Below, piece by piece: positions 44,471 through 63,051 of a DNA stretch of 63,319 nt. Below the pieces are notes generated by a model that was given only the letters and a program-made list of their open reading frames with translations, made no database searches and was not told the DNA's origin. The DNA is taken from assembly GCA_030673825.1 (NCBI GenBank), contig JAUTCS010000078.1, forward strand, positions 1-63,319, given 5' to 3'. Numbering within the stretch: the stretch's first letter is position 1; the number at the start of each line of letters is the position of its first letter. The translations under genes and the position numbers were made by a program. This DNA is from Verrucomicrobiota bacterium JB024. Its GTDB lineage: Bacteria; Verrucomicrobiota; Verrucomicrobiia; Opitutales; Cerasicoccaceae.

Positions 44471-44548
44471 CGGGGCGTAGCGCAGCCTGGCTAGCGCATC
44501 TGCTTTGGGAGCAGAGGGTCGCAGGTTCGAATCCTGTCGCCCCGACCA
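44471..44548 (+). tRNA. tRNA-Pro (anticodon TGG)
   Basis: The acceptor stem cggggcg (44471-44477) pairs with cgccccg (44538-44544), followed by discriminator A and an encoded CCA (44546-44548). The anticodon arm tctgc-tttggga-gcaga gives anticodon TGG, and the T arm contains ggttcgaatcc. The 3' end from about 44491 overlaps the last codons of the serine recombinase on the other strand, as expected when an island has inserted into the tRNA gene and rebuilt its 3' part. Confidence 0.95.
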
Positions 44549-46206
44549 TTAGGGACAAAAGTCGAACTTTTGCCACCACCATCGTAAGCCATTGGTATCA
44601 GGTCGCTTGCGATAAACTCTAGTTGGACCAAGTAGAGGGAAGTTCGTATTTTGAGTGTCGCGCAGGGGTTTCCGCTGGGGAGGCGGTCTTTTTTGGGGTC
44701 GAATTTTTTGATGCAAATGCCCTTCAAAATGAGCCGTAGGGCGTCCTTCTGGTCCTCGTAGGGAAGCGCGTCAAAGGTGTCTTTGAAGCGACGCAAGCGC
44801 TCGGCAATGATCTGGTGGTCGGCCACCACACGCTCTTTGTAGTCGATATCGATGCGGACTTTATCCCTCTCAATCTCAATGGCGTGCTTGTCGGCGGCAA
44901 GTTTTTCGGCCTCGGCGCGAATCTCGAAGCTGAAATGCCGTTCGCCCTTCCCGGCCAGTTCCAAATAACGCCGAAGCTGGGTGCTCAACTCGGTGTGACG
45001 CTTGTTGAGTTCGGCCAGCCGCTTTTTGAGCGGGCGAAGCGATTTCTGTTTCTGACTGTTGGACTCGGCAATGGATTTTTCGATGATGGCGGGATGCTGG
45101 CCCAATTCGCCAATCAACTCTGTGACGATCTTTTCCAAGGGCCGCGCCGGGACACTGCGCAGCGGGCAATGCGAGTGCCGCCCGTCGCGGTTGACGCAGC
45201 CGCACTTGTAGTAGAGGTATTGCTTGCCGTCGGCGTCCTTCTTGCCGCTGGGATGCGGAATCAGGCTGTTACCGCAGTGGCCGCATCGGGCCAAGCCCTT
45301 GAGAACAGCCTGATGTTTGTCGCTCTTGCGTTCGCGGGGCGGCTCAATCTGACGCTTGTTCAAAGCTTCGTTGGCCTTGTCCCAGAGCTTGGGCGCAATA
45401 ATCCCCTCGTGCTCGCCGGGATACTCCTCCCCGCGATGCCGGATGACGCCTTTGTAAATGGCATTGGAGACGATTTGCTTGATCTTGTCGGAGCGGAAAC
45501 GTTTCCCGCCCCCGCGCTTTTCGCCGTCCCGCGACTGGTAAACGCGCTGGCGGGTACGGCCTCCCTCGTTATTGACCTGCTGGGCAACCAGCGTGGCGTT
45601 GCCGAACTCAGCCGCCAGCGTGTAGATGCGCTTGACCAAAACAGCTTCCTCCCGGTTGGGACTGAGCTTTTTCGTCTGCGAATCGTAGTTGTAGCCGAGC
45701 GGAACAGCGCCGCCTGCCCACATGCCACGCTTGGCGCGTTCGGCCAGCTTGTCGGTGATGCGCTCCGCCGTCAGCTCGCGTTCGTATTGGCCGAAACCCA
45801 ACAGCATGTTGAGCATGAGTCGCCCGGCAGGTGTCCCGGTATCAAAGCTCTCGGTGGCCGAAACAAAATTCGCGCCGTGATCTTCCAGCAATTGCCAGAA
45901 GTCGAAGAAATCGCGCACGGAGCGGGCAACCCTATCCAACTTGTAGGTGACAACCACATCAATCTCGCCCCGCTTGATCGCCTGAATCAGCCCTTGCACG
46001 CCGGGCCGTTCAAGGTTCTTCCCCGAATAACCCGGGTCTTCAAAGAAGTGGGTTTCCTCCCAGCCTTCATGCTGGTGAACGCCGATCAGATGGCGGCAAA
46101 TATCGTGCTGACTTTCCAGCGAGTTGTAATCTCCGCGCGTCTGGTCGTCAGTGGAGACCCGCGCATACACGGCGCAACGGGCATATTTCTTAGCGGGCGC
46201 AATCAT
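44491..46206 (-). CDS. Large serine recombinase (island integrase)
   Basis: From the ATG at 46206 the protein has about 571 residues. The resolvase domain carries the nucleophile S18 in AVYARVSTDDQ, then GYSGKNLERPGVQGLIQAIK, VVTYKLDRVARSVRDFFDF and RLMLNMLLGFGQYERELTAE. A recombinase domain (about 170-280), a zinc ribbon with CGHCGNSLI and a later CGCVNRDGRHSHCPL, and a coiled coil near 370-460 follow, the usual build for this group. The last 18 residues (GRGDRIRTCDPLLPKQMR) are encoded by the antisense of the tRNA-Pro gene, and the stop lies inside the tRNA. This places an attachment site at the tRNA 3' end. Start 46272 is possible. Confidence 0.93.
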   Translation of the reverse strand: MIAPAKKYARCAVYARVSTDDQTRGDYNSLESQHDICRHLIGVHQHEGWEETHFFEDPGYSGKNLERPGVQGLIQAIKRGEIDVVVTYKLDRVARSVRDFFDFWQLLEDHGANFVSATESFDTGTPAGRLMLNMLLGFGQYERELTAERITDKLAERAKRGMWAGGAVPLGYNYDSQTKKLSPNREEAVLVKRIYTLAAEFGNATLVAQQVNNEGGRTRQRVYQSRDGEKRGGGKRFRSDKIKQIVSNAIYKGVIRHRGEEYPGEHEGIIAPKLWDKANEALNKRQIEPPRERKSDKHQAVLKGLARCGHCGNSLIPHPSGKKDADGKQYLYYKCGCVNRDGRHSHCPLRSVPARPLEKIVTELIGELGQHPAIIEKSIAESNSQKQKSLRPLKKRLAELNKRHTELSTQLRRYLELAGKGERHFSFEIRAEAEKLAADKHAIEIERDKVRIDIDYKERVVADHQIIAERLRRFKDTFDALPYEDQKDALRLILKGICIKKFDPKKDRLPSGNPCATLKIRTSLYLVQLEFIASDLIPMAYDGGGKSSTFVPNGRGDRIRTCDPLLPKQMR

Positions 46207-46283
46207 GCCTGAGTATATAATGATCGCCCTGCCGAGTGAAGCCCCAATGTCCTCCGAATCCCCTTTTAACAAAGCTTAAACAT

Positions 46284-46676
46284 TCACCCGGCAAGGCGAT
46301 AGCGGACGGATCGCGTTTGTCCAAGTTGCTGAACCTTGCCCGCCTCCCTGAGTTCCGTAAGCAGGCGATAGGTCTTGGACCGGGACAGGTAATGCTTATT
46401 CTGGATATCTCGGGGCGAAGCTTCCCCCACATCAGCCAAGAAATCAATGATCCGGTCCGTCGTGGACGTAGGGCGCTCAAACTCGATACTGCGGCGGCTC
46501 GGCTCAATATCGACAGCAGACTCTTGGGACTGCTTACTCTGTTCCTCTGCCTGTTCGCCGCGCAGTTTCTTCCTGTCGCGCTCTTCGGCCAGAAACACCG
46601 CCTTCGCCATGATCGCGCAAAAGCGATCCAACCGACTCTCGTCGGATAAGTGGGCGTAAGCGTCGTACCGGACCAT
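46284..46676 (-). CDS. Small protein with winged-helix-like C-terminus
   Basis: This 130-residue protein is charged and helical at first (CAIMAKAVFLAEERDRKKLR, then a Glu/Gln/Ser-rich spacer to about residue 68). It ends with a winged-helix-like domain: DRIIDFLADVGEASPRDIQN, LSRSKTYRLLTELREAGKVQ and LGQTRSVRYRLAG. It precedes the recombinase gene on the same strand with a 77-base gap, so it may be a partner or regulator of integration or excision, such as a directionality factor; that is inference. Another open frame on the same strand (46190-46777) reads as a shadow. Confidence 0.6.
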   Translation of the reverse strand: MVRYDAYAHLSDESRLDRFCAIMAKAVFLAEERDRKKLRGEQAEEQSKQSQESAVDIEPSRRSIEFERPTSTTDRIIDFLADVGEASPRDIQNKHYLSRSKTYRLLTELREAGKVQQLGQTRSVRYRLAG

Positions 46677-47168
46677 GACGCTGACATTCTACCAGAGAAT
46701 CGACCCATAGATAGGGAAAGGTGTCGCGGAGAAATTTCCCTAATTGCCCGGAACGAATGAACTGTCCCATTCTTCATCCCAGCAAAGGCAGCCCCGCCCC
46801 CAAAAAACCTGCCCGGTGGTTCAATTTCTCGTGAGCGTTTTCAATGCTTCTCTCTGCTAAATATCTCTTCATAGATCGCCTGTTTTCCCTGCCAAGCGGC
46901 GAGCGCGAGCGAAAACGTTCCCGGAGCGATGGCCTGCAAGGCCGCTGTCAATGTGGAGATTTTTCCGCCGAGCGCGGAAGCAAGGAGTCTGCGACGAAGC
47001 TGCACAAGCGAACGGGAAAATACGATATTGACGGCTTGGAGCGCAGGGATGGCATCATCCTTTTCCTGCTCGGCAGGTAAACAGGCGAAGCATGTTCTTC
47101 ACAGATGTGAAATCCTGTCTTAATCGTCCCGTTCCTCGGCCTATGAAACGTGTGGTCTGATGCAACCA
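46677..47168. other. Intergenic stretch without a supported gene
   Basis: About 490 bases at the left end of the island. Two short overlapping plus-strand frames (46844-47080 and 46929-47123) have atypical, Ser/Arg-rich composition and no recognisable domain. I see no repeat, tRNA or clear terminator. Confidence 0.4.
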
Positions 47169-47442
47169 TTACTGTAGACGTTTCTTCCTGGCTTTTTTGG
47201 TCGCCTTTGTCGTTGTTTTTTGGGGAGCAGTGGCCTCAACATTATCCCAATGGGGAAAAAAGTCATCCCAAGATTTCAACCCCAAGGCTTTCATGGCGTG
47301 GGCCAATGTCGTAAAGCGAATGTTGATGTGCCCCGCTTGCATGACCTGAATGCTGCATTGGCTCGGCATAGGTTAACCTGTTCGATGCATTATTCCTTGA
47401 GGTGAGTGCTTTTATACGCAACTTATTCCTAAGCAATCGAAG
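47169..47442 (-). pseudogene. Frameshifted remnant of an XRE-family HTH regulator
   Basis: Two minus-strand frames together resemble one HTH_3 domain. The upstream frame reads LLRNKLRIKALTSRNNASNR, which matches the first helices. The shifted frame continues SIQVMQAGHINIRFTTLAHA and MKALGLKSWDDFF, which match helices 3-5 and the usual end, followed by a Lys/Thr-rich tail ending at 47169. The junction lies near 47355-47385. Neither frame alone gives a complete domain. It is decayed DNA in the island, consistent with past rearrangement. A real short gene cannot be excluded. Confidence 0.4.
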
Positions 47443-47560
47443 TAGTGGCTTCGTATTATTCGCCCCTAAAACCAACCCTTTCATCGCTTCGGCAAGCTGG
47501 CTCTGCCGACGACTGAATAATTCTATAGCGCCAATGATCAAAAGTTCAACGGATACCTGC

Positions 47561-49975
47561 ATGTTATTGAGATATGCATATGTCACTACTGTCATCACCG
47601 CTCTGACGAGTATGACCACACATGCCGATGAACTGGATATGTGGCAACAGCAGATCCAGAACGAAAGTAAAACGACTTCGACGCAAGCGAGTGCATCGAC
47701 ACACGGCGATCAATTGAAATGCGAAGCTCGTTTTCAGAAGCAACATCCACTGGCGGACGCGATGGATGGTGACGTAAAGACATGGGCATGGCCAGAACCG
47801 AAAAAGGTCACCGGATCGGACGAGCCACTGAGCTACGAAATTGTCTTTGCCGAAACACGAGAAGTGGATCGTCTACGTTTCTGGCAACATCCCTGGTGCT
47901 ATGCCACCGAATTCCGGATTTTGGCAGACGAAAGCGGCAATGGCCAGTATGACAAGGTCCTGCTGGAAGTGCATGATCCGCGTTTGGGAGCGGGCGAATG
48001 GGTCCGCTATGATTTTGAACCAATCACGGCACATGGCGTAAAGTTCGAAGCGATCCGGGGTTGCGGGCAGGGGATGTCTTTCCCCGCACTGGCGGAAATT
48101 CAGGTGTTGAACAGTCGCCAGGCGACCTCCGAGTCACCCTCCGATACTGAGGTCTTAATCCGTGTTGCCATTGATTCACGTTTGGACATTAATGGCTTTA
48201 CCGCGATTCAGCCGGAAATGTTCAATCTATGCTGGGGTGCGACCGGGCTGAGGGATGAAAGGCCCTACGATCTCTTAAAACCGCTCAATCTGGGGGGATT
48301 GACTACGTGGGGGCAGATGTGGGGCGACCGTCCCTTGAGCCCGGAAGATCCGCCGCGCGCCGGTTGCGCAGTTTTTCCCGAAGATCCGGATCATCCTGGG
48401 CAATTTGACCGCAATGAATTCACGTCGGGGGCTTTTCGGGAATGGCTGGAATCGCATAGCATTGGCATCTATCGCCTCGCGCACTCTTTGGGAGCTAATG
48501 TCAGTGAAATGTTGGGAAAAGCGCCTTCCTACATGCAGCGCACTGATTTTAAATCAACGGCGGACGGCAACTACAAAAATGAGACCCAGTTTTTCCCGCC
48601 GAAGGATCCTGCCGAATGGGGCCGTCTGGTCGGACACGTGTTGAAAGACATTAATGACGCGACCGACGGCGCAGTCAAGCGGGGCTATATCTGGAACGAG
48701 CCCAATGCCTCTCGCTACTTCCCGGTTCCCTGGGACGACAAGGCCGACACCTACTGTGAACTCTTTCTGAACGCCGTTCCCGAAATTAAAGCCTTGAATC
48801 CAGACATCATGATTGGAGGTCCGGTCGTCACTGGCTCAGGTCCTCTGGCATGGGGCAATGGCTATAGTGGCTGGAACACCTGGGCCAAGCGCTTCATCGA
48901 CCGATGCGGTGAACTGGCCGACTTTTATGATGCGCACTCTTACTATTGCGGCCCGGATAACCTCTACGCCGAAACCGATCTGATCGCCGGTTATTCCTTG
49001 CTGAAAACGGGCAAGATTCTTCCCCTCACTTCGACCGAAGCGGCGCCCCATCTCGGTAAAGCGGGGGCGCCTTATATCGACGAAATCGGGGTTTCCTGGC
49101 GCAATGGCGCAGTCCCGACTGCATCCATGTTGCTGCACCTGATCACCATGCCCGACAAGTGGATCGGCTACTCTCGTTTCTATTACAAGTCATTCCCCGG
49201 CTTATCGGTCTTCAATGACAAGTATGAGCCGGAGCCGATCTACTGGGCCTATTGGGTCATGCGTAACCTGCGCGGCGAACTGGTTCCGGTCGAGTGCTCC
49301 GATTCCGATGTGCTCGTTGTGGCAACTCACAACGAGAAGTCGTTTGTCGTCACGGTGCAGAACCTGGCTTTCGAGACACGATACCTTACCTTGGACATGC
49401 GTGTGAGTGGCACTGCGAATGTGGATTATCTGGAGTACAATCCGGACTCCGGCGAAGTGGAACATGGCACCCGCAACGCTGATATGCAGGGCGAAAACGT
49501 CAGCCTGGAGTTGGCCCCCATGGGGCTCTATACGATCACGATGGACGTATCAGCAGCGTCCCCGGTTACGCGTACGCTGGTCCGCGAGGATTTTCATGGC
49601 GACCAGTTTTTCCAGCGCCTGACGCCGGACAATGCCGTCGAGATGGTTATCGACCTGCCCACCGCGCTTGCGCCGACCAAAGCTTGGTTGCGCTTTGGTT
49701 CCGCCGGATCGGGGCATCTGACCGAAGATCGCCCCAGGGTAACGTTTGACTACCGCATTCCCCTGATCATTGAGGTCAATGGCCGAACCTATCACGTTGA
49801 GGCGGGCAAGTGGAATTCCGTGCCACTGGAAGCAGACCAAACAAAGGGGGAAGTTCAAGTCCGCTTTCGTTTGGACTCCTCCGGCTTGGACCACCTGCCC
49901 AAAGATTTTTGGATTATGTCCGCATCTGTGGCCACGGAGATGTGGGAAAGTCAGGATATACCAGCAAAGGAATAA
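47561..49975 (+). CDS. Secreted clan GH-A-like glycoside hydrolase with N-terminal F5/8-like domain
   Basis: From the ATG at 47561 the protein has about 804 residues, with a signal peptide (MLLRYAYVTTVITALTSMTT, then HA). Residues about 50-185 look like an F5/8 type C sugar-binding module (ADAMDGDVKTWAWPEPKK ... GMSFPALAEIQVL). The central part behaves like a clan GH-A barrel: RGYIWNEPNASRYF gives an Asn-Glu pair with candidate acid/base E380, and KILPLTSTEAAPH gives candidate nucleophile E493 (E508 in YIDEIG is another). A beta-rich C-terminus follows. It is nearest in flavour to GH39/GH86-type enzymes but I cannot assign the family. Start 47534 is also possible. A pilin-like gene starts 3 bases after its stop. 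Confidence 0.65.
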   Translation: MLLRYAYVTTVITALTSMTTHADELDMWQQQIQNESKTTSTQASASTHGDQLKCEARFQKQHPLADAMDGDVKTWAWPEPKKVTGSDEPLSYEIVFAETREVDRLRFWQHPWCYATEFRILADESGNGQYDKVLLEVHDPRLGAGEWVRYDFEPITAHGVKFEAIRGCGQGMSFPALAEIQVLNSRQATSESPSDTEVLIRVAIDSRLDINGFTAIQPEMFNLCWGATGLRDERPYDLLKPLNLGGLTTWGQMWGDRPLSPEDPPRAGCAVFPEDPDHPGQFDRNEFTSGAFREWLESHSIGIYRLAHSLGANVSEMLGKAPSYMQRTDFKSTADGNYKNETQFFPPKDPAEWGRLVGHVLKDINDATDGAVKRGYIWNEPNASRYFPVPWDDKADTYCELFLNAVPEIKALNPDIMIGGPVVTGSGPLAWGNGYSGWNTWAKRFIDRCGELADFYDAHSYYCGPDNLYAETDLIAGYSLLKTGKILPLTSTEAAPHLGKAGAPYIDEIGVSWRNGAVPTASMLLHLITMPDKWIGYSRFYYKSFPGLSVFNDKYEPEPIYWAYWVMRNLRGELVPVECSDSDVLVVATHNEKSFVVTVQNLAFETRYLTLDMRVSGTANVDYLEYNPDSGEVEHGTRNADMQGENVSLELAPMGLYTITMDVSAASPVTRTLVREDFHGDQFFQRLTPDNAVEMVIDLPTALAPTKAWLRFGSAGSGHLTEDRPRVTFDYRIPLIIEVNGRTYHVEAGKWNSVPLEADQTKGEVQVRFRLDSSGLDHLPKDFWIMSASVATEMWESQDIPAKE

Positions 49976-49978
49976 CCG

Positions 49979-50614
49979 ATGAAAAAGAATTCACTGGGAT
50001 TTAGCCTCGTTGAACTGCTCGCGGTAATCGCGGTGGTTGGCATCTTGGCTGCGATTATCATGGTGGTTACGGTTTCCGTCCGCCAAACCGCCAGGAAAGC
50101 GCAATGCGCGAGCAATCTGCGCCAGATTGGGGCGGCTACCCAGCTTCACATCGTGGAAAACAACGAGTTTCCTCCGGCCCGAGTGCACAGCAAACTGATG
50201 CCGTATCTCGACATGACGAGTCAATCATTTGAGACATATTGGTGTCCGGAGGATTCCCGAATAGAAACTTGGGAAAGCAATTTGGCACTGCCCACCGAGG
50301 AGCAAACGCACTTTTACATCGGGGATTACAGCAGTTACTCCTACAATGCTTCTCTGCTTGGCTACGCCACAACAAAGAACCGATGGGGTGGCATCTGCTG
50401 GGACCATGCCCTGACACTTCCTCAAGAAGTCGTCAACCCCGCCAAGGTATTTTTCATGTATGACGGCAGTCCCTACTACGGAGACCGGGCCGTCCGTTCC
50501 GGTCAATTCCGTCATAATGATCACCTGAATGTTTTGTACGTCGATGGCCACGTCAGCCAATGGCAGGGAAGCCCTGAAGAGTTTTACTACCCGAAGAACT
50601 GGGATCCCAAATAA
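49979..50614 (+). CDS. Pseudopilin-like protein with H-X9-DG motif (copy 1)
   Basis: This 211-residue protein has a class III-type prepilin leader: MKKNSLG, cut before FSLVELLAVIAVVGILAAII, with Glu at +5 of the mature protein, then the hydrophobic helix. After the conserved-type ASNLRQIGAATQLHI the globular domain ends with H-X9-DG (HNDHLNVLYVDG) near residue 178. Such proteins (DUF1559-like) are very numerous in Verrucomicrobia, Lentisphaerae and Planctomycetes and have no proven role. It lies 3 bases after a secreted glycosidase gene, in the same transcript, with no pilus assembly genes in the window. Confidence 0.85.
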   Translation: MKKNSLGFSLVELLAVIAVVGILAAIIMVVTVSVRQTARKAQCASNLRQIGAATQLHIVENNEFPPARVHSKLMPYLDMTSQSFETYWCPEDSRIETWESNLALPTEEQTHFYIGDYSSYSYNASLLGYATTKNRWGGICWDHALTLPQEVVNPAKVFFMYDGSPYYGDRAVRSGQFRHNDHLNVLYVDGHVSQWQGSPEEFYYPKNWDPK

Positions 50615-50677
50615 GGGGCGGCCTCACCGCTTGAGGCATCTTACCGATCCACTGACGGCGTCAGCCCGTTCAATTCA

Positions 50678-52045
50678 TTGCCCATGAAACATCATTTTCA
50701 CTTTAATCGGATCTGGCCGTTTGCACTGCTGCTCCTGAGCATCAGCGGTTTTTCCGCACCATCATTTGGCGCATCTCACAGCGAAACAGATGCATATCCG
50801 CTGCGCGACGCCATCGAGTTTACTCCACGCGATGGCTTGCCCAACATATTCCGGAAATTGGATGATGGCGACGAGGTATCCATCGCCTATTTCGGAGGCA
50901 GTATAACGGAACAGGGAGGTTGGCGTTTGCAAAGTCTGGCCTGGTTTCGGGAGGAATATCCTGATGCCACAGTCAAGCAGATCAACGCGGCCTTGGGAGG
51001 CACCGGATCAAGTTTGGGTGTATTCCGTCTGGAGGGAGATGTCATTGAGCATCACCCTGACCTGATCTTTGTCGAATTTGCCGTCAATGACAGTGGCGTC
51101 AAACCCGATGAAATCATCAAGGCAATGGAAGGTATCGTTCGCAAGATCTGGCAGGCATCGAATACCACCGATATTTGCTTTGTCTATACAATGACCAAGA
51201 GCGAATCTAGACAACTGGCCGCCGGAAAACTGCAACGTTCGGCCAGCGTCATGGAAGCCGTTGCGGATCACTATGGCATTCCCAGCATTTGCCTGGGACT
51301 CGAAGCCGCTGACATGGAAGCGGCAGGCAAGCTCATTATGAAAACAGACGCCCCCATGACCCGCGTTTCCGGGGACGAATTGAACGAGGCCGCAATGATG
51401 GCAACCGACGAGCAAGGCCGCATCATCTTTTCCAAGGACGGCGTGCATCCCTACCCGGAGACGGGCCACGTGCTCTACACCCAGGCCCTGGTCCGATCCA
51501 TGGAGCAAAGTCAGTATGACGCCGACACGCTTGCCCACCCACTACCCGATCCCATCGATCCGGACAATTGGGTTATGGCACAGCAACTCACCATTACGGA
51601 AGCCATGCTCAGTGGGCCATGGGAAATTCTCTCTCCGGAAAACGATCAACTTGCCAAGCAATTCAACCGCCGGATGCACCCGATTTACCGTTTGCAACCG
51701 GGGGCGGAACTGACCTTCAGATTTAAAGGCAGTAAGGTTGCCGTATATGATTTAATGGGACCGACGGGCGCGGTGGTGGAAGTAACGCGTGACGGGAAAA
51801 CCTGGAAGTCCAAACGGATGGACGCTTACTGCACTTACTATCGCCTCGCCACCATGGATATAGGCAGGAACCTCGATCCGGATACGGTCCACGAGGTGGT
51901 CATTCGCGTGCTGGACGAACCGGTGGACCGCAAACAGACCCTTTTCGAAAAAAACCGGAAGGACGTCGACAAGAACCCCCAGAAATACGAAGGCAGTTTC
52001 TTTTATCCCGGCGGCATTCTCATTGTCGGTGAACTCGTAGAATAA
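50678..52045 (+). CDS. Secreted SGNH/GDSL hydrolase (copy 1)
   Basis: This 455-residue protein has a signal peptide (FALLLLSISGFSAPSFGA) and an SGNH domain with the blocks in order: YFGGSITEQGG with nucleophile S73, NAALGGTGSS, FVEFAVNDSG with N135, and DGVHPYPETGH with D252 and H255. The C-terminal 150 residues are a beta-rich module (YRLQPGAELTFRFKGSKVAV). It is probably a carbohydrate esterase that removes acetyl or similar groups from a polysaccharide. It follows the pilin-like gene by 63 bases and is a relative of the second SGNH gene at 56421. Confidence 0.85.
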   Translation: MPMKHHFHFNRIWPFALLLLSISGFSAPSFGASHSETDAYPLRDAIEFTPRDGLPNIFRKLDDGDEVSIAYFGGSITEQGGWRLQSLAWFREEYPDATVKQINAALGGTGSSLGVFRLEGDVIEHHPDLIFVEFAVNDSGVKPDEIIKAMEGIVRKIWQASNTTDICFVYTMTKSESRQLAAGKLQRSASVMEAVADHYGIPSICLGLEAADMEAAGKLIMKTDAPMTRVSGDELNEAAMMATDEQGRIIFSKDGVHPYPETGHVLYTQALVRSMEQSQYDADTLAHPLPDPIDPDNWVMAQQLTITEAMLSGPWEILSPENDQLAKQFNRRMHPIYRLQPGAELTFRFKGSKVAVYDLMGPTGAVVEVTRDGKTWKSKRMDAYCTYYRLATMDIGRNLDPDTVHEVVIRVLDEPVDRKQTLFEKNRKDVDKNPQKYEGSFFYPGGILIVGELVE

Positions 52046-52153
52046 GCCGGATAGAATGCGTTTTCCCGAGAAGAAATGTAAAATCACCGTTCGTGGTCAC
52101 TCGACGATACTTGGCGAGTAACGCTGATGGTCTCATTGTGGTGAGATGGGATA

Positions 52154-53188
52154 TCAGCTTTTCGGGGTGACTTTGCGCACGCTGGTACTCTGAACCCAAT
52201 TGCCGGGAATCAGCAGGGAGCGAGGATGCTCGGGCATCCCGCGCGTGTTGCGATTGATCTGGTCAATGACCAGGTGCGCGGCGGCCTGTCCGGCGTCAAA
52301 ATTGTTCTGCTGAATGCCAGAGAGGTTTTCCCAATCCGAACTCACGTCCAGGTGGCAAACTCCAAGCTCATCTGGAATCTTGATGCCCGCATCCGTGAGG
52401 TAAGTCAACGGCTCACTCTCGGAGATGATGATGGCATCGGGCTGGTATTTATCCAACCAGGACATAAACAGCGAGCGAGAGATCTCTTTTTCCAGTAGCG
52501 GAGGTGGCCATTGCACGTGCGCCTGACACGCCCAGCCGGCGTAGGCCGACAGAGCCTTGAAATTCGAACGTTCGGCCCAGACGGTCCTTGCCATCACTAA
52601 GCCAATGTTACGATAACCCAGTTCGTCGAGCTTACTGATGCACAACCACGCGTTGTTGTAGTGATCGGCCGCGCTGTAATGAGTCGGAAAGCTTGAGCTG
52701 CGGTTGCCCAGTGAGGCCATCGCATAGCTGTCCCACCCCGCGCTGCCCATCCAATCTGGCACATGGCCTCCTATAAAAATAACTCCAGGCACACGACGCG
52801 AGCGCAGGCGCGCGAAGAAGCGCCTCGGCGTTTCTTCGAAGTCATCCCAATAAAACCGCTCGCAAAAAAAGCCTTCGTTATGGCAGGCCTCTTCGACGCC
52901 AACGATAAACTCGCGGTCGGTTGAGTGATGCTTGAGATAATCCAGTACGCGCCGAGTTGCACACAAAGCGAGGATGGCGCGGATGTCCTGCTTGGGATTG
53001 CGGCGGCGCTGCTGTCGCATCATCGCCGAGACAATCGGATTAGGCATGTAACCGTTCTTTTTCGCAATCCGTTTGATGCGTCGTCGTGTTTCCTCAGAGA
53101 CGTTTGGACGGTCACGCAGGGCAAGGCTGACGGTTGCGATACTCACGCCTGCCTCTTTTGCGATCATCCGATAGGTGCAATTGTTCAT
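52154..53188 (-). CDS. LacI-family transcriptional regulator (copy 1)
   Basis: This 344-residue protein has the LacI layout: HTH with TYRMIAKEAGVSIATVSLAL and RDRPNVSEETRRRIKRIA, hinge near residue 48-60, then a periplasmic-binding-like effector domain with RRVPGVIFIGGHVPDW and a C-terminal DLVIDQINRN-like region (HLVIDQINRNTRGMPEHPRS). It binds DNA as a dimer and responds to a sugar. It lies between the SGNH gene and the GH10 gene, which it probably controls. The second LacI at 60824 has the same length but only moderate similarity. Confidence 0.93.
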   Translation of the reverse strand: MNNCTYRMIAKEAGVSIATVSLALRDRPNVSEETRRRIKRIAKKNGYMPNPIVSAMMRQQRRRNPKQDIRAILALCATRRVLDYLKHHSTDREFIVGVEEACHNEGFFCERFYWDDFEETPRRFFARLRSRRVPGVIFIGGHVPDWMGSAGWDSYAMASLGNRSSSFPTHYSAADHYNNAWLCISKLDELGYRNIGLVMARTVWAERSNFKALSAYAGWACQAHVQWPPPLLEKEISRSLFMSWLDKYQPDAIIISESEPLTYLTDAGIKIPDELGVCHLDVSSDWENLSGIQQNNFDAGQAAAHLVIDQINRNTRGMPEHPRSLLIPGNWVQSTSVRKVTPKS

Positions 53189-53235
53189 GCCAGACTTGCA
53201 TATAATCCTATCAAATGAGCATGGTCAAGAGGCTC

Positions 53236-54567
53236 CTACCGAGTTGTCATCGGCAGATTTTCCGGGACCAAATCCCATTTAACCGAAGGCAATGACGACT
53301 CTACGGAACGGGTGATTACTTCGCCGTCATCCAGTTGAACCTCATATTCGCCATGGAAAGCGCGGAAGGTAACACAACCGTTGGTGTCCGTTCTCAAATG
53401 CACCCGCGTACGCCACTCTTCATGGATAAGGTGGTGAAGCGCATCGTAGGCGGGCTTTGGTTCCAGGCTCGCGTCGAGCAGTCCGGAATACACCCTGTCT
53501 TCCCCGGCGCATGCGCCACCGTCGGGTAAATTCCACCAAGTGATTCCCCGCACCAAGGGCTGACTGAACCACAGACGGTAGAGGTTGCGCGCAGCTTCGG
53601 CCTGGGCGTCCCGACCCGCCGCGTCGTCGTCGAGTGAAGTCAGGGTGATCTCGCTAATATGCAACGGCAAATTAAGAGGAGAAAGCTGGTCGAGCACTCG
53701 GAAGAGCTCCAGCGGGGTCCGTGACTCACCCCGGAGCATGTTGCGGAGTTCCTCGTCATGGAACAAATGGAACTGCAAACCAGCACCATCCACGCGCATA
53801 CCAAGAGATTGCAGGCGTCGGATGTAATTAATCCAAAGCTTGAGGTTGGCCGGATTCCACACGGCGGTGGCCTCGTTAATATAGCGTTCGGTATCGATGG
53901 GCAGAGCCTCCCGCGCCCATTCAAAGGCCCGTCGTCCGTAGTCGTCCGGCATCGGCACCGAGCCCGGTCGCCCCTGCCCGCGTCGCGCGGTTTCCAGCAC
54001 TTCATTGACCACATCCCAGCGGCGAATCCGCGTGCCGTAGCGCGTGGCGATGTCGGTCACATGCTCTTGCCAAAGTCGAGTTTGCTTCGCCATTGGCAGT
54101 GCGTCCAGCCACTCCGGCACCGACCACTGGGAAAAATCCCACACCAGCGGATGTCCGTGCATACGTAATCCATGATTCTCGCAGAAAGCAATCACGCGGT
54201 CCGGCGGGGGGCGTCGAACAACCGTTGGGCTGTCTACGTTGTAGCGGCGCTTCCCGCGTTCGGGCTCTATTCCCTTCCAGTAAAAGGGCACCGTCGCCGC
54301 GTTGAACAGCGCCAGATAAGCCTGTTCGTAGGCCGCATTGCGGGCGGGTGAATCGTAGCCGTCGAGCAGGAATATGTTCGCCCCGAAATGGAAGGACGAC
54401 GCGGTCTGCCGCGCAGCCACCCGCACACCAGGCAAAGGTGCGCCTTCGGGCGTCGTCACCCGGACGCGAACTTCGCTTTTACGCGCGCGCTCGATGTCGG
54501 TTTCGATCCGCAGTGCAATGGAGGGATCTTCCCACAAATTGCGGTAGGCATAGGAAAGGTAAGTCAT
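53236..54567 (-). CDS. GH10-family endo-beta-xylanase-like protein (copy 1)
   Basis: This 443-residue protein is a GH10 barrel: FHFGANIFLLDGY near 59, FYWKGIEPERGKRRY near 95, LRMHGHPLVWDFSQWSVPEW at 134-153, the acid/base E189 in RWDVVNEVLET, and the nucleophile E306 in LHISEITLTS, with TWWNLPDG near 343. An N-terminal beta domain (RVRVTTPEGAPLPGVRVAAR) and a C-terminal beta domain (RTDTNGCVTFRAFHGEYEVQ) flank it. There is no signal peptide, so it appears cytoplasmic, unlike most xylanases, and may cut imported oligosaccharides. The copy at 58525 has the same length and nearly the same motifs. Confidence 0.88.
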   Translation of the reverse strand: MTYLSYAYRNLWEDPSIALRIETDIERARKSEVRVRVTTPEGAPLPGVRVAARQTASSFHFGANIFLLDGYDSPARNAAYEQAYLALFNAATVPFYWKGIEPERGKRRYNVDSPTVVRRPPPDRVIAFCENHGLRMHGHPLVWDFSQWSVPEWLDALPMAKQTRLWQEHVTDIATRYGTRIRRWDVVNEVLETARRGQGRPGSVPMPDDYGRRAFEWAREALPIDTERYINEATAVWNPANLKLWINYIRRLQSLGMRVDGAGLQFHLFHDEELRNMLRGESRTPLELFRVLDQLSPLNLPLHISEITLTSLDDDAAGRDAQAEAARNLYRLWFSQPLVRGITWWNLPDGGACAGEDRVYSGLLDASLEPKPAYDALHHLIHEEWRTRVHLRTDTNGCVTFRAFHGEYEVQLDDGEVITRSVESSLPSVKWDLVPENLPMTTR

Positions 54568-54620
54568 GATATCGGCATCAGTAATTAAACCCGGAGCATA
54601 TCATACGCCTTGATCATGAA

Positions 54621-54647
54621 CCGCCGGGGCATGACAAACCCCGGAGG
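54621..54647 (-). terminator. GC-rich hairpin after the PEP-CTERM gene
   Basis: ccgccgggg (54621-54629) and ccccggagg (54639-54647) pair at 8 of 9 positions with a 9-base loop, 25 bases past the stop of the PEP-CTERM gene. No T-run follows on the minus strand, so it may need Rho or may act from both sides as a barrier. Confidence 0.45.
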
Positions 54648-54671
54648 CTCATTCATCGATAAGCAGAAGTG

Positions 54672-55631
54672 TCAACGACGGCGACGCTGAACACGCCGTA
54701 GGAGTAAGGCGGACACACTTATGCCCAGCAGCAGGCCCGTTACGGCCGGTTCTGGCAGTGGAGTAACATCGGTCAGACTCTCACCGTAGCGAATTTCGTC
54801 CATGATGTAGCTGGAACTATATGCGCTATTACTCGAGGTGTAGCTAGCCAACTGCAAAACGTCACCGCTAGACAACGAAATCGTACCCGTATAGGAAACA
54901 TTCAGGTAGCCATCTGATACCACGTTGGTCGTTAAAGCAGTGTCGGTCATACCGGCGGCGCGGGCAGCGGCGAGTCCAGATTCATCCAGTATCCAGACCT
55001 CAAGTGTGCCGCTGCCCGTGCTCAGTCCAGTGATTTTCGTCACGAACAGGTAGGTTGAGCCATCGTAAATGCCCGGTCTTACTGCGGCGGATGTATTCGA
55101 GTAATAGTAGTCATTGTAACCGGAGGCGGAAAGGCCATTATAGTAGGATGAGTTGCCTCCATAGAAGGGCAACACCGCGTATTCCAACGTGCCCGAAGAA
55201 CTCCCGTTGCGGAATCGAGTTGTCCAGGTGGAGCCTGTCTGACCTGAGGCGGAGTCTATCGGCTGGTCCTCTGTCTGAAAGAGGAAGCTGCCGTAAACCG
55301 TCGAAGTCGTGACATTGGTGCCGGAGGTTCGGTTAAGCAGCGTAGCCGCTCCACTGGAACTGGTGATCAAGGCGGAGCCCCCGGAGGTATAGAGGCCCGA
55401 GAAGGCCAGGCCATTGCTGACCGTGGCTTGCACACCCCCTCCCAAGCTCCAGGACGAGGAGAAGCCGGTCCCGCCGCTGTTGCCAGCCAAGTTGCTGCCA
55501 ACAGCGTAGTCAAAGCTGTCTTCCAGCAAGATCGTCGCGGATAACGAGGAGGCCAACGCGCCTAAGGTCAGCAGAGAAATCAGGCAAGATTTGCCGGAGA
55601 GTGAGATGGGGTTGAGACAATTTGTATTCAT
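54672..55631 (-). CDS. PEP-CTERM sorting-domain protein (copy 1)
   Basis: This 319-residue protein has a signal peptide (CLISLLTLGALASSLSATIL). The mature part is a Ser/Gly-rich beta protein (ESFDYAVGSNLAGNSGGTGF-like start; the real text begins EDSFDYAVG). The end is a PEP-CTERM signal: LPEP, a hydrophobic stretch (VTGLLLGISVSALLL) and a basic tail RRVQRRRR. Such tails are recognised by exosortases, and the proteins go to the surface or matrix. The paralogue at 61970 shares GGTGFS, TSGGSAL and SGDVLQLA blocks. No exosortase is in the window. The fold looks like a lectin-type jelly roll, which would suit sugar binding. Confidence 0.85.
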   Translation of the reverse strand: MNTNCLNPISLSGKSCLISLLTLGALASSLSATILLEDSFDYAVGSNLAGNSGGTGFSSSWSLGGGVQATVSNGLAFSGLYTSGGSALITSSSGAATLLNRTSGTNVTTSTVYGSFLFQTEDQPIDSASGQTGSTWTTRFRNGSSSGTLEYAVLPFYGGNSSYYNGLSASGYNDYYYSNTSAAVRPGIYDGSTYLFVTKITGLSTGSGTLEVWILDESGLAAARAAGMTDTALTTNVVSDGYLNVSYTGTISLSSGDVLQLASYTSSNSAYSSSYIMDEIRYGESLTDVTPLPEPAVTGLLLGISVSALLLRRVQRRRR

Positions 55632-55694
55632 TGTTTTATGGGTTATTGTTGAGGAGTCATGGAAACGTCGGTATGGAACTGTCAGTCGGCACCT

Positions 55695-55976
55695 TTACGC
55701 AATAAAGCAACAGGATCTCGCCTTTGGGCGTAGCGCCGGGGACTTCGATAAGGTTGTTTTCCATTTGCCGCTCGATGATGGACAATAGGGAAACGCCGCA
55801 TGGTTATCGCTCTCGTAAAGCGTGCACGCATAACCTATCCCTATCGCAACAAACAAAATGGCCGGCAAAATAGCGGTCACCGTAAGCGTGGCCAGCAAAG
55901 CGATCAGGGGAACCCCGCCGCAACAACGGAACACGTGCCGACGCATCCGGGTGAATGAAGGGAACCAAGGCATCAT
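55695..55976 (-). pseudogene. Decayed prepilin-like N-terminus
   Basis: A 93-codon frame contains PLIALLATLTVTAILPAILF, which lines up with the prepilin core FSLIELLAxxxxxAILAAIL, but the glutamate is lost, Pro interrupts the helix, and no leader or globular domain follows. The frame above it (55804-56247) gives only shadow sequence over this part. It looks like the ruin of a pseudopilin gene of the kind found at 49979 and 59907. A chance hydrophobic frame is possible. Confidence 0.35.
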
Positions 55977-56124
55977 TTCGCATCATCCCTGACGTGGAGT
56001 CATGCTTCAATATAATTTTCATCGAACAAGTTAACTTGGCTCGTGCTTCTGGCTGAGTCCCACGATTTGGCCCAGTCGCTATGATTGATTTGCGGTCGGC
56101 TTGTCGTGTTCGTTTATTTGGTTG

Positions 56125-56312
56125 TGGAGGTTTTGGCGCAGGAAATATCCCGGCTGCGCGAAGAATGTTGTCCACCGTCGTATCGCTAACAGTATGATCA
56201 AGGTTCCTTGAATTCTGCCGCAACCCCAGTCGGGGTTTCTTCGGCAAGCTTGACTCGTAGCTCTCGAATGATCGCTATCTCCTTTTGGCGCTCGGTTTGA
56301 ATATGTCGTTTC
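56125..56312 (-). pseudogene. Shattered integrase-core transposase fragment
   Basis: Three minus-strand frames in sequence spell one known pattern: KEIAIIRELRVKLAEE, then NPDWGCGRIQG, then DHTVSDTTVDNILRAAGIFP followed by APK. This is the region just before the catalytic core of rve-type transposases/integrases (consensus near ENPxWGYxRIQGEL...GHxVSxxTVxxILxxxGIxPAPxR). Two frameshifts and loss of the catalytic core make it non-functional. It lies exactly between the two carbohydrate modules, marking an old insertion. I did not find terminal repeats. Confidence 0.6.
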
Positions 56313-56420
56313 GCCGCATGTTTTGCGGCAATGAGTCTGCGCCGCAAGCATCATAGGCTTGTGCGAGCTATCCGTAATAATACGATTACTGTCACTCTTT
56401 ATAGATGCTTAATCAAAGTG

Positions 56421-58166
56421 ATGAAACGAAACTCAAAACTCTTCTTCGGTTTTCAAATATTATCTTTTTCTGTCTTCATGCTGTTCGGTTGCATGAACGT
56501 TAGCGCATCTGTTTCCTATTCTGAGAGGAAGGCAGACCTTTCTGCTTTCTTTAACAAACTCAATACGGGAAAATATGTCACGGTAGTTACTCTTGGAGGC
56601 TCAATTACGATGCATCAAAACGGTTGGGCCCAGAAAACAATCGAACTCATGCGCACGGCATATCCACAGGCAACGATCAATTTCGTCAATGCGGGGATCA
56701 GCGGTACAGGAAGTAATTTTGGAGTATTTCGTTTGAAGCGCGACGTCATCGAAATGCGGCCCGATATGGTAATCATCGAATACGCAGTAAATGATAGCGA
56801 TACTGACGATACCGTCTGCATCAGAAATCTCGAGTCCATCGTCAGCCGTTTGCGAGGTCTGCCACACCCCCCTGCACTGATCTTTTTGGAGTCAGCTTCC
56901 GAAAGTGGAGTTAATCAAAGTCGGCATAATCAAGTCGCTCGGCACTATGGGATCCTTGACGTGGACATGCAATCAGTGGTTGATGCCTATCTGACCGAAA
57001 GTGGCAAATCGTGGAGCGATTTGTACAGTGATTGCGTCCATCCGAATGAGTCTGGCCATGCCCTATATGCTCAAACTCTCTGGCAGGGCATGCAGGCAAA
57101 CATACAACTTGAGAATATCACTGGGATTAGAGAAAATTCGAATTCACCCCTTTCGAAGCAAGGTCTGGTCCTGGATGCTTGTCTGCTACTGCCTAATTTC
57201 ATGCAGAACGGCTGGGACTACCAAGGTGAAAGCTCACAGGGGTGGTGGGGGAAATACTTTCAGGGAACACTGCAAAGTGGAGAAGATGGCTCTGCGTTGC
57301 ATGTTCCTTTTTACGGGCGTACGATCGGTGTGGTCCTGATGACAAGAGAGGGGACGGGCAAATTACGCATCGCTGTGGATGGAGAACTGATTAATGAAAT
57401 AGATGCCTACACCCCGAATTGGTTCTATAAGGTCTATGTTCATCCGGAACTTTTGGAAGACAGTTGGCATGTGCTGAGTTTGGTCCCGATAAGTAGCGAT
57501 GACACCGCCGCCAACGTCCGTATCGCTTACCTGCTGACAGAAGACCAAAGCAATGTCCCAGCCATCCCGGCTGATTTTTGGGACGTTGTTTGGCCAGAAA
57601 GTCATCGTCTGACCTCTGGATTAAGTCAAGTGGACTGGACGGCCGTCTCGGCCACGGATTGGTCTATTGCAGGCCCCTTTGGGCCGCAAACAGACAAACC
57701 GTGGGAAGACCCTGGCGTTGCGATGGATCTGGATTACGGATTGGATCCCGCGCAGGCGCCGGATCTGGATCAATCCTATAGCGGTTATGCTGGCAGGGTG
57801 GTGAGGTTGGAATCGGGTGAAGGCGACGGAAGCTGGGTGAACCTGGGGAAAATGTTTGGTCTTCACAACCGCGGCGTAAGCTATGCTTACCTCCGTCTAA
57901 AAGCCGAGCACTCGGGAGATTACACCTTCCGGTTAGCCGTGGATTATTTCGCTTATATATATGCTAACGGCGAATGCGTAAGCACCCTGATGGAGGCGCA
58001 CGGAGATCCACTGAAGGAAGTTCCTGTAACACTGCCATTACAAGCAGGTGAAAATATCGTATGCCTGGTGATGCACGCGGGAAGCATGGGAGCCGGTTTT
58101 CGCTTGGAATACCCGAACAATCGGGGGATTTCGATTGAGCCAATTGGAATGACCAAGCTTCCGTGA
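56421..58166 (+). CDS. Secreted SGNH/GDSL hydrolase with C-terminal beta module (copy 2)
   Basis: From the ATG at 56421 the protein has about 581 residues. The signal region (FQILSFSVFMLFGC) could be a lipoprotein signal ending at C24. SGNH blocks: TLGGSITMHQNG with S61, NAGISGTGSNFG, IIEYAVNDSD with N124, and SDCVHPNESGH with D204 and H207. The C-terminal part contains AGPFGPQTDKPWEDPG and YAYLRLKAEHSGDYTFRLAV with GENIVCLVMHAG, a PA14-like pattern that may bind sugar. Probably a polysaccharide esterase. It is the module-2 partner of the SGNH gene at 50678, with about 150 extra residues. Confidence 0.85.
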   Translation: MKRNSKLFFGFQILSFSVFMLFGCMNVSASVSYSERKADLSAFFNKLNTGKYVTVVTLGGSITMHQNGWAQKTIELMRTAYPQATINFVNAGISGTGSNFGVFRLKRDVIEMRPDMVIIEYAVNDSDTDDTVCIRNLESIVSRLRGLPHPPALIFLESASESGVNQSRHNQVARHYGILDVDMQSVVDAYLTESGKSWSDLYSDCVHPNESGHALYAQTLWQGMQANIQLENITGIRENSNSPLSKQGLVLDACLLLPNFMQNGWDYQGESSQGWWGKYFQGTLQSGEDGSALHVPFYGRTIGVVLMTREGTGKLRIAVDGELINEIDAYTPNWFYKVYVHPELLEDSWHVLSLVPISSDDTAANVRIAYLLTEDQSNVPAIPADFWDVVWPESHRLTSGLSQVDWTAVSATDWSIAGPFGPQTDKPWEDPGVAMDLDYGLDPAQAPDLDQSYSGYAGRVVRLESGEGDGSWVNLGKMFGLHNRGVSYAYLRLKAEHSGDYTFRLAVDYFAYIYANGECVSTLMEAHGDPLKEVPVTLPLQAGENIVCLVMHAGSMGAGFRLEYPNNRGISIEPIGMTKLP

Positions 58167-58524
58167 GGTCGTTCGCATTCGTCGATGCGGGGAAGTTTCC
58201 TTAACCTTTTGGGAAGATAATATCAGAGATATTGATTGCCTCAGCCCTCTCTCACACCTGGATCGAGTGCAGTCGTCTGGTCGAGTTCCTTGATGTCATC
58301 CACAAGGTCAGCCCCTATCCGAACAAAGCCCGGTTGCTCAGTCTTGTTTGGACGGGGAGTGATTGGCCTGGCACACATTTGCCTGTATCGCTCTAGTGCT
58401 TGCCGTCATCGCCAGCGCGTGCCTGTTTCAAGACGTAGTGCTCTTTGGGTAGAAACTGATCACCAAAATCTACAATAAAAACTATCGAGATTTTACGGAA
58501 GGATGAATTGGTGATACGCTATAT
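58167..58524. other. Intergenic stretch, no supported gene
   Basis: A 358-base gap between two convergent genes. A 45-codon minus-strand frame (58241-58378) ends with PGFVRIGADLVDDIKELDQT, which has a coherent, amphipathic look and may be the tail of a lost gene, but I cannot name the family. A small hairpin (cgcat ... atgcg) follows the SGNH stop near 58178. The plus-strand frame 58236-58478 looks random. Confidence 0.35.
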
Positions 58525-59856
58525 TTACTTTACGCAGGTCATATCATCGGTTTGCGTGATATCCAGCCGAGTCGCCTTCTTATGTTGATCAAGCGTGAAT
58601 CGCACTTTTTTTGCATCTTCGATGCTCAGTTCATAATCGCCGTGGAAGCCGCGAAACTCAACCCATCCCTCCGCATTCGTTATTCCAGAGAAGCGGGTTT
58701 TCCATTCATCATGAATCAACTGGTGCAGTGCATGGTAGGACGGCTTGGGCTCCAGGTGCATATCGAGCAGACCGGAACAGACCCGGTCTTCACCGGCACA
58801 GGCGCCGCCGTCTGGGAAATTCCACCAAGTGATTCCTTGCACCGCAGGATGGCTGAACCACAATCGGTAAAGGTTGCGTGCAGTCTCTGCCTGGGCCTCA
58901 CGCCCAGCCGCGTCGTCCTTGATTGATGTTAACGTGATTTCGCTGATATGCAATGGAAGGTCAAGCGGGGCCAATCGATCAAGCGCCGTGTATAATTCAT
59001 GCGGCGTGTATGTTTCCCCGCGAAGCATGCTGAGCAGATTCTCATCGAAAAACATGTGAAACTGCAAACCAGCGCCGTCGATGCGCATTCCAATGGACTG
59101 TAGTCGGCGAATGTAACGGATCCACAGCTCAAGGTTGGTTGGATTCCACACTGCCGTGGCCTCGTTGATATAACGTTCTGTTTCACCAGGTAAAGCCGCT
59201 TGGGCGCACTCGAAGGCGAGTCGGCCATAATCGTCTGGCATCCGGACCGACCCCGGGCGGCCTTGTGGGCGACGTGCGGTCTCCAACACTTCGTTGACCA
59301 CGTCCCAGCGACCGATACGCTCTCCGTAGCGTTGCGCAATGTCAGTCACATGTTCACGCCAAAGGCGTGTTTGTTCTTCCATCGGCAATTTGTCCAGCCA
59401 CTCGGGCACAGACCATTGTGAGAAGTCCCACACCAGAGGATGTCCGTGCATGCGGAGCCCATTCTCTTCACAAAAAGCGATAACGCGCTCCGGAGGCGGG
59501 CGCCGAACAACTTTCGGGCTATCAGGACAATGGCGACGCTGCCCTTGTTCAGGCTCCAGGCCCTTCCAATAAAAAGGAACGGTAGCCGCATTGAATAAAT
59601 TCAGGTAGGCGTCCTCATAGCGCTCGTTGAAGGCATCCGTATCATAACCATCCAACAGGAAGATGTTTGCTCCAAAATGGAAATGGGATGTTATTTGGCG
59701 GCACTCAATTCTGATTCCAGACAGAGGCTCTCCTTCGGGCGACTTGACGCAAACTCGACATGGCGACTTTCTTACACGCTCAATATCAATGTCGATTCGT
59801 TCTTGAATGCGACAATCGTTCCATAATGCACGATAGGAATTTGAAATATAATTCAT
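58525..59856 (-). CDS. GH10-family endo-beta-xylanase-like protein (copy 2)
   Basis: This 443-residue protein aligns end to end with the copy at 53236, by eye at around 70% identity over the barrel. It keeps FHFGANIFLLDGYD, MHGHPLVWDFSQWSVPEWLD, acid/base E189 in RWDVVNEVLETARR, nucleophile E306 in LHISEITLTS and TWWNFPDGGACAGEDRV. The C-terminal domain (about 390-443) is the least similar part. It too has no signal peptide. It follows the pilin-like gene by 50 bases on the same strand, so the two are probably cotranscribed from the operator at 60720. Confidence 0.88.
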   Translation of the reverse strand: MNYISNSYRALWNDCRIQERIDIDIERVRKSPCRVCVKSPEGEPLSGIRIECRQITSHFHFGANIFLLDGYDTDAFNERYEDAYLNLFNAATVPFYWKGLEPEQGQRRHCPDSPKVVRRPPPERVIAFCEENGLRMHGHPLVWDFSQWSVPEWLDKLPMEEQTRLWREHVTDIAQRYGERIGRWDVVNEVLETARRPQGRPGSVRMPDDYGRLAFECAQAALPGETERYINEATAVWNPTNLELWIRYIRRLQSIGMRIDGAGLQFHMFFDENLLSMLRGETYTPHELYTALDRLAPLDLPLHISEITLTSIKDDAAGREAQAETARNLYRLWFSHPAVQGITWWNFPDGGACAGEDRVCSGLLDMHLEPKPSYHALHQLIHDEWKTRFSGITNAEGWVEFRGFHGDYELSIEDAKKVRFTLDQHKKATRLDITQTDDMTCVK

Positions 59857-59906
59857 CTAAATGTAATTGTATTATGCTAAAATGATGTTGTTGCGAGAAG
59901 ATCACA

Positions 59907-60650: not shown

Positions 60651-60719
60651 TTGGCGATATGTGACATCAAGCATACGACTAAAATCGTAGCCCGTTTAGT
60701 CGTTTCGGCAATTTACTTT

Positions 60720-60739
60720 AAATTGAACAAGTTCAATTT
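60720..60739. promoter_or_regulatory. Perfect palindromic operator before pilin/GH10 (copy 2)
   Basis: aaattgaac and gttcaattt are exact reverse complements around a 2-base centre (aa), 20 bp in all. It lies between the LacI stop and the start of the pilin/GH10 transcript, 46 bases before 60674. The size and symmetry suit a LacI-family dimer. A related site lies at the LacI start (61857-61874). Confidence 0.65.
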
Positions 60740-60823
60740 TGTCCAGTGAAACTGGCTCGCAATCAGAATAGGCAACGACTACTGATCACTCAAAGGGGAC
60801 ATCGGACAATGTCTAGGCGTAGA

Positions 60824-61858: not shown

Positions 61859-61874
61859 TTGAACTGATTCAAAT
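61857..61874. promoter_or_regulatory. Palindromic site at the LacI start (copy 2)
   Basis: atttgaa and ttcaaat are exact reverse complements around ctga. The core TTGAACTGATTCAA agrees with the TTGAACAAGTTCAA core of the site at 60720 at 11 of 14 positions. It touches the LacI start codon and lies in the divergent gap to the PEP-CTERM gene, a natural place for self-repression. Confidence 0.5.
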
Positions 61875-61969
61875 GAATTTAATTTGGAAACTCAACTCGT
61901 TTCTTTATAACTGAATCACGCATGGGTTTCCTGTGCATTCATTCCGTTCACGTAAACAAATCTACTCTT

Positions 61970-62914: not shown

Positions 62915-62973
62915 ATTACTACACTTTTTCCTGACAATACTAAGGGAAATCTGTAATCTGAAAGGATATTGGA

Positions 62974-63000: not shown

Positions 63001-63051
63001 AGTGGATGCATATTCCTTAGACCCTGCCAATCATCAGTTCGTTCATATGGT

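Follow-up and report, generated by a model that had tools for sequence, protein, structure and literature searches.

A tRNA-targeted large serine integrase with attP probably inside its own gene: integration would part the core from a ParB-type HTH domain

The genomic island that adjoins tRNA-Pro(TGG) in the Verrucomicrobiota bacterium studied here very probably encodes an integrase with attP inside its own gene, such that integration would split the core of the enzyme from a C-terminal ParB-type HTH domain. In the mechanism that we propose from sequence comparison, attP would lie between the catalytic/DNA-binding core and the HTH domain, and the excised circle would carry a frame of about 700-730 codons in the order core, attP, HTH. 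Core and HTH would then be parted when the island recombines with a tRNA gene at its 3′ end. That is, the core would remain beside the tRNA, its new end being made of the antisense of the tRNA and of the DNA upstream of it, up to the first stop, and the HTH part would be moved to the opposite end of the island. The enzyme would find its tRNAs via the T-loop sequence GTTCG, which resembles the GTTCG half-sites of attP. The analysis was wholly computational, and all genomes compared are assemblies.

The integrase gene ends inside tRNA-Pro

The window, i.e. the whole stretch of DNA analysed (63,319 nt), is the entire contig C78 of an assembly of 163 contigs. The target gene, tRNA-Pro(TGG), with its CCA encoded, was placed by ARAGORN at 44471..44548 on the plus strand, versus 44471-44545 (+) in the Rfam call. 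On the minus strand, a large serine recombinase (LSR) of 571 aa extends from an ATG at 46206 to a TAG in the tRNA (44491..46206); an alternative start, TTG at 46272, gives 593 aa. As the preliminary description of this DNA had stated, the LSR frame enters the tRNA: it ends ...GRGDRIRTCDPLLPKQMR, its stop codon TAG occupies 44493-44491, and both this stop and the final 18 codons, read from the sequence (44494..44547, minus strand, running from 44547 to 44494), are tRNA-Pro antisense throughout. The integrated gene has, therefore, a host-derived 3′ end.

Judged from its Pfam domain content, the window LSR is a full large serine recombinase, with matches to Resolvase (3.9e-38), Recombinase (9.4e-13) and Zn_ribbon_recom (1.9e-11). 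Residues 536-571 have AF2 pLDDT values below 50, obtained with a shallow alignment (7), and the tail is predicted to be disordered. The G+C content of the window is 64.1% before tRNA-Pro and 53.1% after it, and the island body extends over 44549..63319 (no strand), that is, to the contig end. The core and the tRNA-derived tail are thus both observed in the window, as is the element-side half-site described below.

Directly upstream of the LSR gene, a 130 aa protein (46284-46676, minus strand) matches an IclR-type HTH with an E-value of 6.9e-5, barely above the cutoff, and is a candidate regulator or directionality factor. The cargo at 47402-62914, which comprises a GH39-like gene (below cutoff), GDSL, LacI and two GH10 genes, the repeats of the latter two being 5289 nt apart, looks like one for polysaccharide use.

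A family of LSRs adjoining tRNA genes

In the phylum sample of 387 genomes, LSR matches were taken at E ≤1e-60; they occurred in 60 genomes, the window's own counted, and were mostly distant. The close family consists of the nearest matches of this sample plus those from a scan of named genomes, among the matches listed. The LSR of G131 (88% identical) adjoins tRNA-Pro CGG, those of G288 and the two copies of G371 (about 45%) adjoin tRNA-Asn, and that of G128 (38%) adjoins tRNA-Ser; among the matches listed, the LSRs of loci L100 and L101 adjoin tRNA-Ser and those of L102, L104 and L105 adjoin tRNA-Asn. The records listed are named Verrucomicrobiota-type or Dehalococcoidia (a class of Chloroflexota). 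Searches of plasmid and phage proteins with the LSR returned only relatives with <60% identity.

Among the matches listed, the LSR frame is stop-free up to the tRNA in 11 loci, the window counted, and 11 of the 12 close loci with an antisense tRNA 3′ of the LSR read into that tRNA; in G131, G128, L100 and L101 the frame crosses the entire tRNA. The exception is G048, in which the LSR stops 301 nt before an antisense tRNA-Ser and a longer C-terminus is kept. Only 38-66 nt separate the conserved LSR end from the tRNA in the 11 close loci, and the other frames have 0-2 stops there, so one open frame alone proves little. What is beyond chance is the fixed geometry, with 11/12 loci reading into the tRNA and 12/12 sharing one half-site whose distance from the CCA varies by no more than 1 nt. 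The 11 loci are not all independent, given the 88% identity between the LSRs of the window and G131 and the 88-89% DNA identity, over 1.8-1.9 kb, among G288 and the two G371 copies. Past the tRNA 3′ end the LSR tail continues for 4 to 136 aa, in varying frame phase, indicating that the tail peptide is not conserved, and a regulatory role for this peptide was set aside for that reason. Seven distant LSRs (L112, L125, L127, L131, L134, L140 and L175) end in antisense tRNA too, in several frames.

Excluded from the family counts were L103 (which lacks a tRNA and has the HTH in a different frame), L106 (truncated by a contig end), G160 (whose stretch contains no tRNA), L112 (placed outside the clade by the tree), L289 (found via the half-site itself) and four further G075/G169 matches. 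L103 (10001-11950) is a Dehalococcoidia LSR with a tRNA-Asn-end-like core, followed by the HTH in another frame and without a tRNA, and is perhaps an unintegrated or frameshifted copy. In the LSR-core tree, the unsplit G048 is sister to the split G128 (support 1.0), which means that the gene layout changed at least once; the placement of the other unsplit group has a support of 0.03.

Both island ends in three relatives

Far ends were sought as tRNA-end-like cores preceded by GTTCG at a set spacing, and were rated by a dyad-plus-core score out of 22. Both ends were located in three relatives, one end being weaker, giving islands of 37.6, 60.0 and 85.3 kb. The far end of G128 shares an 11 nt repeat with attL and scores 21/22 (z 7.6, best in 79 kb), and that of G388, the genome of L105, also has an 11 nt repeat and scores 19/22 (z 6.6, best in 100 kb). 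The far end of G371C5, with a 6 nt repeat and a score of 16/22, is only tied for first; an open frame, the match to the HTH and its location count in its favour. Comparison with tRNA-Ser sites of G228 and G163 that no LSR adjoins narrows the position of the G128 end to ~0.5 kb, and the flanks used for this hold repeats resembling remains of earlier insertions. A second copy in G128, 445 nt further, scores 20/22 and, if taken as the end, gives a 623 aa frame without HTH. The nearer end was chosen because it scores higher and because the HTH frame begins there; it replaced a 17 nt repeat considered as attR, along with the circle tail built on that repeat, 445 nt away (21 vs 20 of 22). No far end was found in the available DNA of G371C60, G288, L100 (also G390C124), L101, L102, L104, L112, G391C74 and G228C52.

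Short repeats with attR-like GTTCG and core copies were also seen downstream of tRNA-Ser(TGA) in L083 (G163), L084-L085 (G128) and L082 (G228), and are apparently remains of earlier insertions.

The circle gene and its HTH domain

When the ends of the three islands were joined in silico by a script, the LSR frame ran on stop-free through attP for a further 145 (G128), 153 (G388) and 154 aa (G371C5), yielding circle proteins that measure, stop to stop, 706, 702 and 726 aa, respectively. Over the first 145 far-end codons the LSR frame contains 0 stops, and the other two frames contain 3 and 9 (G128), 5 and 2 (G388), and 3 and 6 (G371C5). Moreover, alignments of all three circle proteins to the unsplit LSR of G048 (719 aa) extend over the junction, at 41% over 696 columns for G128 (residues 17-703), 28% over 681 columns for G388 (residues 2-667) and 35% over 704 columns for G371C5 (residues 9-705). 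The Pfam HTH_ParB domain was found above the curated cutoff in the tails of G388 (1.1e-9) and G371C5 (9e-7) and below it in that of G128 (0.0055), and the G128 tail matches the C-terminus of the G048 LSR at 1.2e-28. In these relatives, then, both ends, the dyad, the continuous frame and the HTH domain are observed, and the coding frame of the integrase contains attP. Integrated islands carry the HTH part as an orphan frame at their far end, and G368 retains such an end too. Gene splitting is demonstrated in the three loci, and by extension the genes of the other read-in loci would be split in the same way.

These junctions support the earlier proposals that the island sits at the tRNA 3′ end with an attachment site overlapping the recombinase gene, and that excision would alter the C-terminus of the LSR. 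They suggest that the enzyme may change form each time the island enters or leaves.

Half-sites, attP and crossover

On the element side of the window, the attP half-site CGAAC lies at 44563..44567 (plus strand), 14 nt after the CCA and in the LSR frame; it is the inverse of GTTCG, the motif carried in the tRNA T-loop. Counted from the CCA, CGAAC starts at +15 in 10 of the 11 read-in loci and at +16 in the remaining one (L105). It is also found at +15 in the unsplit G048, beyond the LSR stop, and at +15 in the unsplit G169, G283, G075 and G181, where the LSR is on the opposite side of the site. All 16 family loci examined (11 that read into the tRNA and 5 unsplit) have it, therefore, at +15/+16. 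Among the distant LSRs, L112 has CGAAC at +16 and the other six do not (0/6); the latter, L125, L127, L131, L134, L140 and L175, are of other lineages, with antisense-tRNA ends but without the CGAAC half-site. As a control, 72 other tRNA flanks gave 12 CGAAC matches at +15/+16, 10 of which are copies of family places. In the remainder 2/62 match, one being L289, which adjoins an LSR (46.5% over residues 5-537), and the other L074, which adjoins only a weak LSR relic (E 0.086).

In all three relatives with both ends located (G128, G388 and G371C5), GTTCG starts 30 nt before the core end. It follows that attP is a dyad of 49-50 bp, GTTCG-N39 or N40-CGAAC (weaker in G371C5), whose centre is located 4.5-5 nt before the last A of CCA. 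In the window, the T-loop GTTCG (44525..44529, plus strand), 23 nt before the last A of CCA, would be the host (attB) half-site matching attP, and this GTTCG and the attP half are the sole attachment halves visible there. The T-loop GTTCG is 6 bp nearer the dyad centre than the far-half GTTCG, an offset that resembles, by analogy, a published 5 bp inward shift from attP to attB: in the available text of PMC3783163, the zinc-domain motif of an A118-family integrase is assigned to attP positions 16-24 (crystal structure) and to attB positions 11-19 (model and mutants). No matching right half of attB was recognised in the host flanks.

The dyad centre and the 6-11 nt repeats of the relatives define a putative crossover interval at 44538..44548 of the window (no strand), with a best estimate of ~44543, so crossover probably takes place near the acceptor end of the tRNA and the island would rebuild no more than about 5 nt at the tRNA 3′ end. 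The idea that integration rebuilds the tRNA seems to hold, then, for about these last 5 nt but not beyond them, the end-to-end repeats being 11, 11 and 6 nt. In G142 and G368, of the genus of G371, tRNA-Asn ends in GCCC, versus GCCA in the element-bearing genes, which suggests that the island may supply the last base or bases of the tRNA. Attachment-like (attR-like) ends some 5-6 kb downstream of the G142 and G368 loci indicate that these are not clean empty sites. The tRNA-Asn of G371C5 (L061, 5946-6020) has two acceptor-stem mismatches, the 5′ and 3′ strands of the stem being of different gene types, as would result from replacement of a longer 3′ piece, and thus points against the short crossover reading. 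A crossover at the T-loop edge, for which a 17 nt repeat, the DsiB precedent and the G371C5 mismatch could be cited, was nevertheless set aside in view of the 11 and 6 nt repeats of G388 and G371C5; it is also countered by the dyad centres at -5/-4.5.

A second conserved GTTCG (GTTCGTATT) lies in the LSR coding sequence of the window at 44642..44646 (plus strand), +94 from the CCA. It was found 94-95 nt after the CCA in 9/9 loci (the window, G131, G288, the two G371 copies, G128, L100, L101 and L102), and was not seen in L104, L105 and L112. The codons at this place are always CGA-ACT, yet CGA makes up only 3/49 to 13/45 of the Arg codons. The second GTTCG is a possible accessory binding site.

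The far end of the window's own island

No displaced copy of the tRNA 3′ part was found in the window's 163-contig assembly (28-mer with ≤3 mismatches; 16-mer with ≤2; 12/14 contexts read), nor was a second copy of the tRNA end of at least 16 nt; the repeats of the relatives measure 6-11 nt. No convincing far half-site was detected in the window's 18.8 kb of island, and across the window's genome the half-site pattern gave 6 matches versus 15 for the reversed pattern. A search among the genomes compared found no island-free tRNA-Pro site for this island. Since the window's far end was not found, it is by homology that we infer the loss of an HTH part from its LSR on integration.

Two other arrangements at tRNA-Pro genes were observed. 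In the window's own genome, L050 (587-637, G000:C56) is a tRNA-Pro(GGG)-like 3′ fragment without the 5′ half, perhaps the end of another island. In the genus mates, L053/L054 (G128), L055/L056 (G163) and L057/L058 (G228) contain a second copy, 49-52 nt long, of the 3′ part of tRNA-Pro(TGG). The G128 copy is beside a 465 aa protein with a PHROG integrase match at 4.1e-25 and a Pfam integrase domain that stays below cutoff; in G163 and G228 the copy is flanked by 1.5 kb of similar DNA. These repeats were rejected as ends of LSR islands, as they belong to another island family with a different integrase that uses the same tRNA.

Discussion

Biology and genome engineering share a central question, namely what stops serine integrases from reversing their own reaction or carrying it out again. 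In the three reconstructed islands, which come from two phyla, the reaction itself joins or cuts a whole enzyme domain, and the family documents serine integrases that are aimed at several tRNA genes, probably via the T-loop. We tentatively suggest, as an idea with less than an even chance of being right, that T-loop-reading serine integrases may use integration as a switch. That is, the two forms would differ in activity, the HTH-bearing form of the circle suiting one direction and the integrated, HTH-less form suiting the other or being silent, in which case directionality would be written into the structure of the gene, instead of or besides residing in a separate directionality factor.

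The chances are about equal that the truncation is or is not a neutral by-product, with attP overlapping the gene by chance, the HTH being dispensable once the island is integrated and the tRNA tail having no role. The variable frame and length of the tails (from 4 to 136 aa beyond the tRNA end) and their predicted disorder (from a shallow alignment) would fit such neutrality, as does the location of the site outside the gene in relatives: in G048 and the further unsplit group the gene stays in one piece, so its truncation is not a requirement. However, among the matches listed, frames that read into the tRNA are found in two phyla and across deep branches, and each of the three reconstructed circles has an open, recognisable HTH frame. 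Furthermore, the HTH parts of G371C5 and G368, with 43% amino acid identity over 152 codons, differ by a dN of ~0.50 and a dS of ~1.04, which also speaks against neutrality.

It is rather unlikely that, in the integrated island, the far-end HTH part is expressed alone and acts in trans as a separate small subunit. Related LSRs do exist in which the HTH is a separate, overlapping downstream gene, namely AcaML1 gp2 and a gene of plasmid pSU2, which the HTH profile matches, in a two-sequence search, at 2.1e-11 and 7.7e-12, respectively. The former is annotated as 'site specific recombinase small subunit' and the latter as a LacI family regulator. In-frame ATGs lie 37-59 nt inward of the attachment point in the three orphan HTH frames, but the G368 copy lacks one there. 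Even less probable is that the element is dead and the reading of its frame into the tRNA an accident of annotation, such a protein end never being made: a probable relic of the same kind does occur in G228, a genus mate, where the half-site is at +16 and an LSR fragment matches only at E 0.086, whereas the window LSR is intact, with all three Pfam domains, and is 88% identical to that of G131 (dN 0.07, dS 1.06). That integration completes the recombinase gene and the circle copy is incomplete, as the preliminary description proposed from the stop codon in the tRNA, is very improbable, since in 3/3 reconstructed relatives the circle gene is longer and domain-complete (702-726 aa) and integration removes its additional HTH domain; of that interpretation, the change of C-terminus on integration stands, with the gene being truncated rather than completed in these relatives.

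Splitting of the integrase gene by attP inside the coding frame, the reading that we favour, has parallels among tyrosine recombinases. When SSV-type elements integrate, their integrase gene is divided and one part comes to lie at each end of the element, as proposed here; the SSV-type enzymes differ in being tyrosine recombinases, of another fold and with another site. The integrase of myxophage Mx8, reportedly the subject of Tojo 1996 (by its title), is a tyrosine recombinase as well, unlike the LSR described here. In the available text of PMC4383910, the gene of the archaeal SSV-type integrases extends across attP, and similarly the available text of PMC6070905 places attP of Mx8 inside int, integration giving a new 3′ end and modified specificity. 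Since integration modifies the specificity of Mx8 int, a change of activity on integration is possible. Classical Islander-type tRNA islands differ from the window island in having a tyrosine integrase instead of a serine recombinase, and Islander, in the part of its description available, limits the term 'integrase' to tyrosine recombinases. The word tRNA is absent from the main text of Durrant 2022 (PMC10083194).

In the literature searched, of which coverage was partial with few subscription journals, we found no account of a whole fused HTH domain lost on integration, of a T-loop half-site common to several tRNA targets (Pro, Asn, Ser), or of such integrases across Verrucomicrobiota-type and Dehalococcoidia records. 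Exchange of the C-terminus of a serine integrase is already known from the rumA elements, as is a serine recombinase at a tRNA-like end from DsiB. The streptococcal rumA ICEs, as covered in the available text of PMC4701971, have a single serine integrase with the attachment repeat in its own gene, and their integration swaps 3′ ends, altering the sequence and length of the integrase C-terminus; they differ in that the target is a protein gene and not a tRNA, and loss of an HTH is not described in that text. The DsiB islands of Dehalococcoides, compared by description only, resemble the present island in having a serine recombinase at a tRNA-like 3′ end (ssrA), with a 20 bp repeat of the ssrA end and an insertion point that their authors place in the T-loop; the target differs in being a tmRNA, and integrase truncation is not mentioned in the available text (PMC3146451). 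Finally, AcaML1 gp3/gp2 combines a related LSR core (the large subunit) with a ParB-type HTH partner (the small subunit), but with the HTH as a separate overlapping gene and not as a fused domain.
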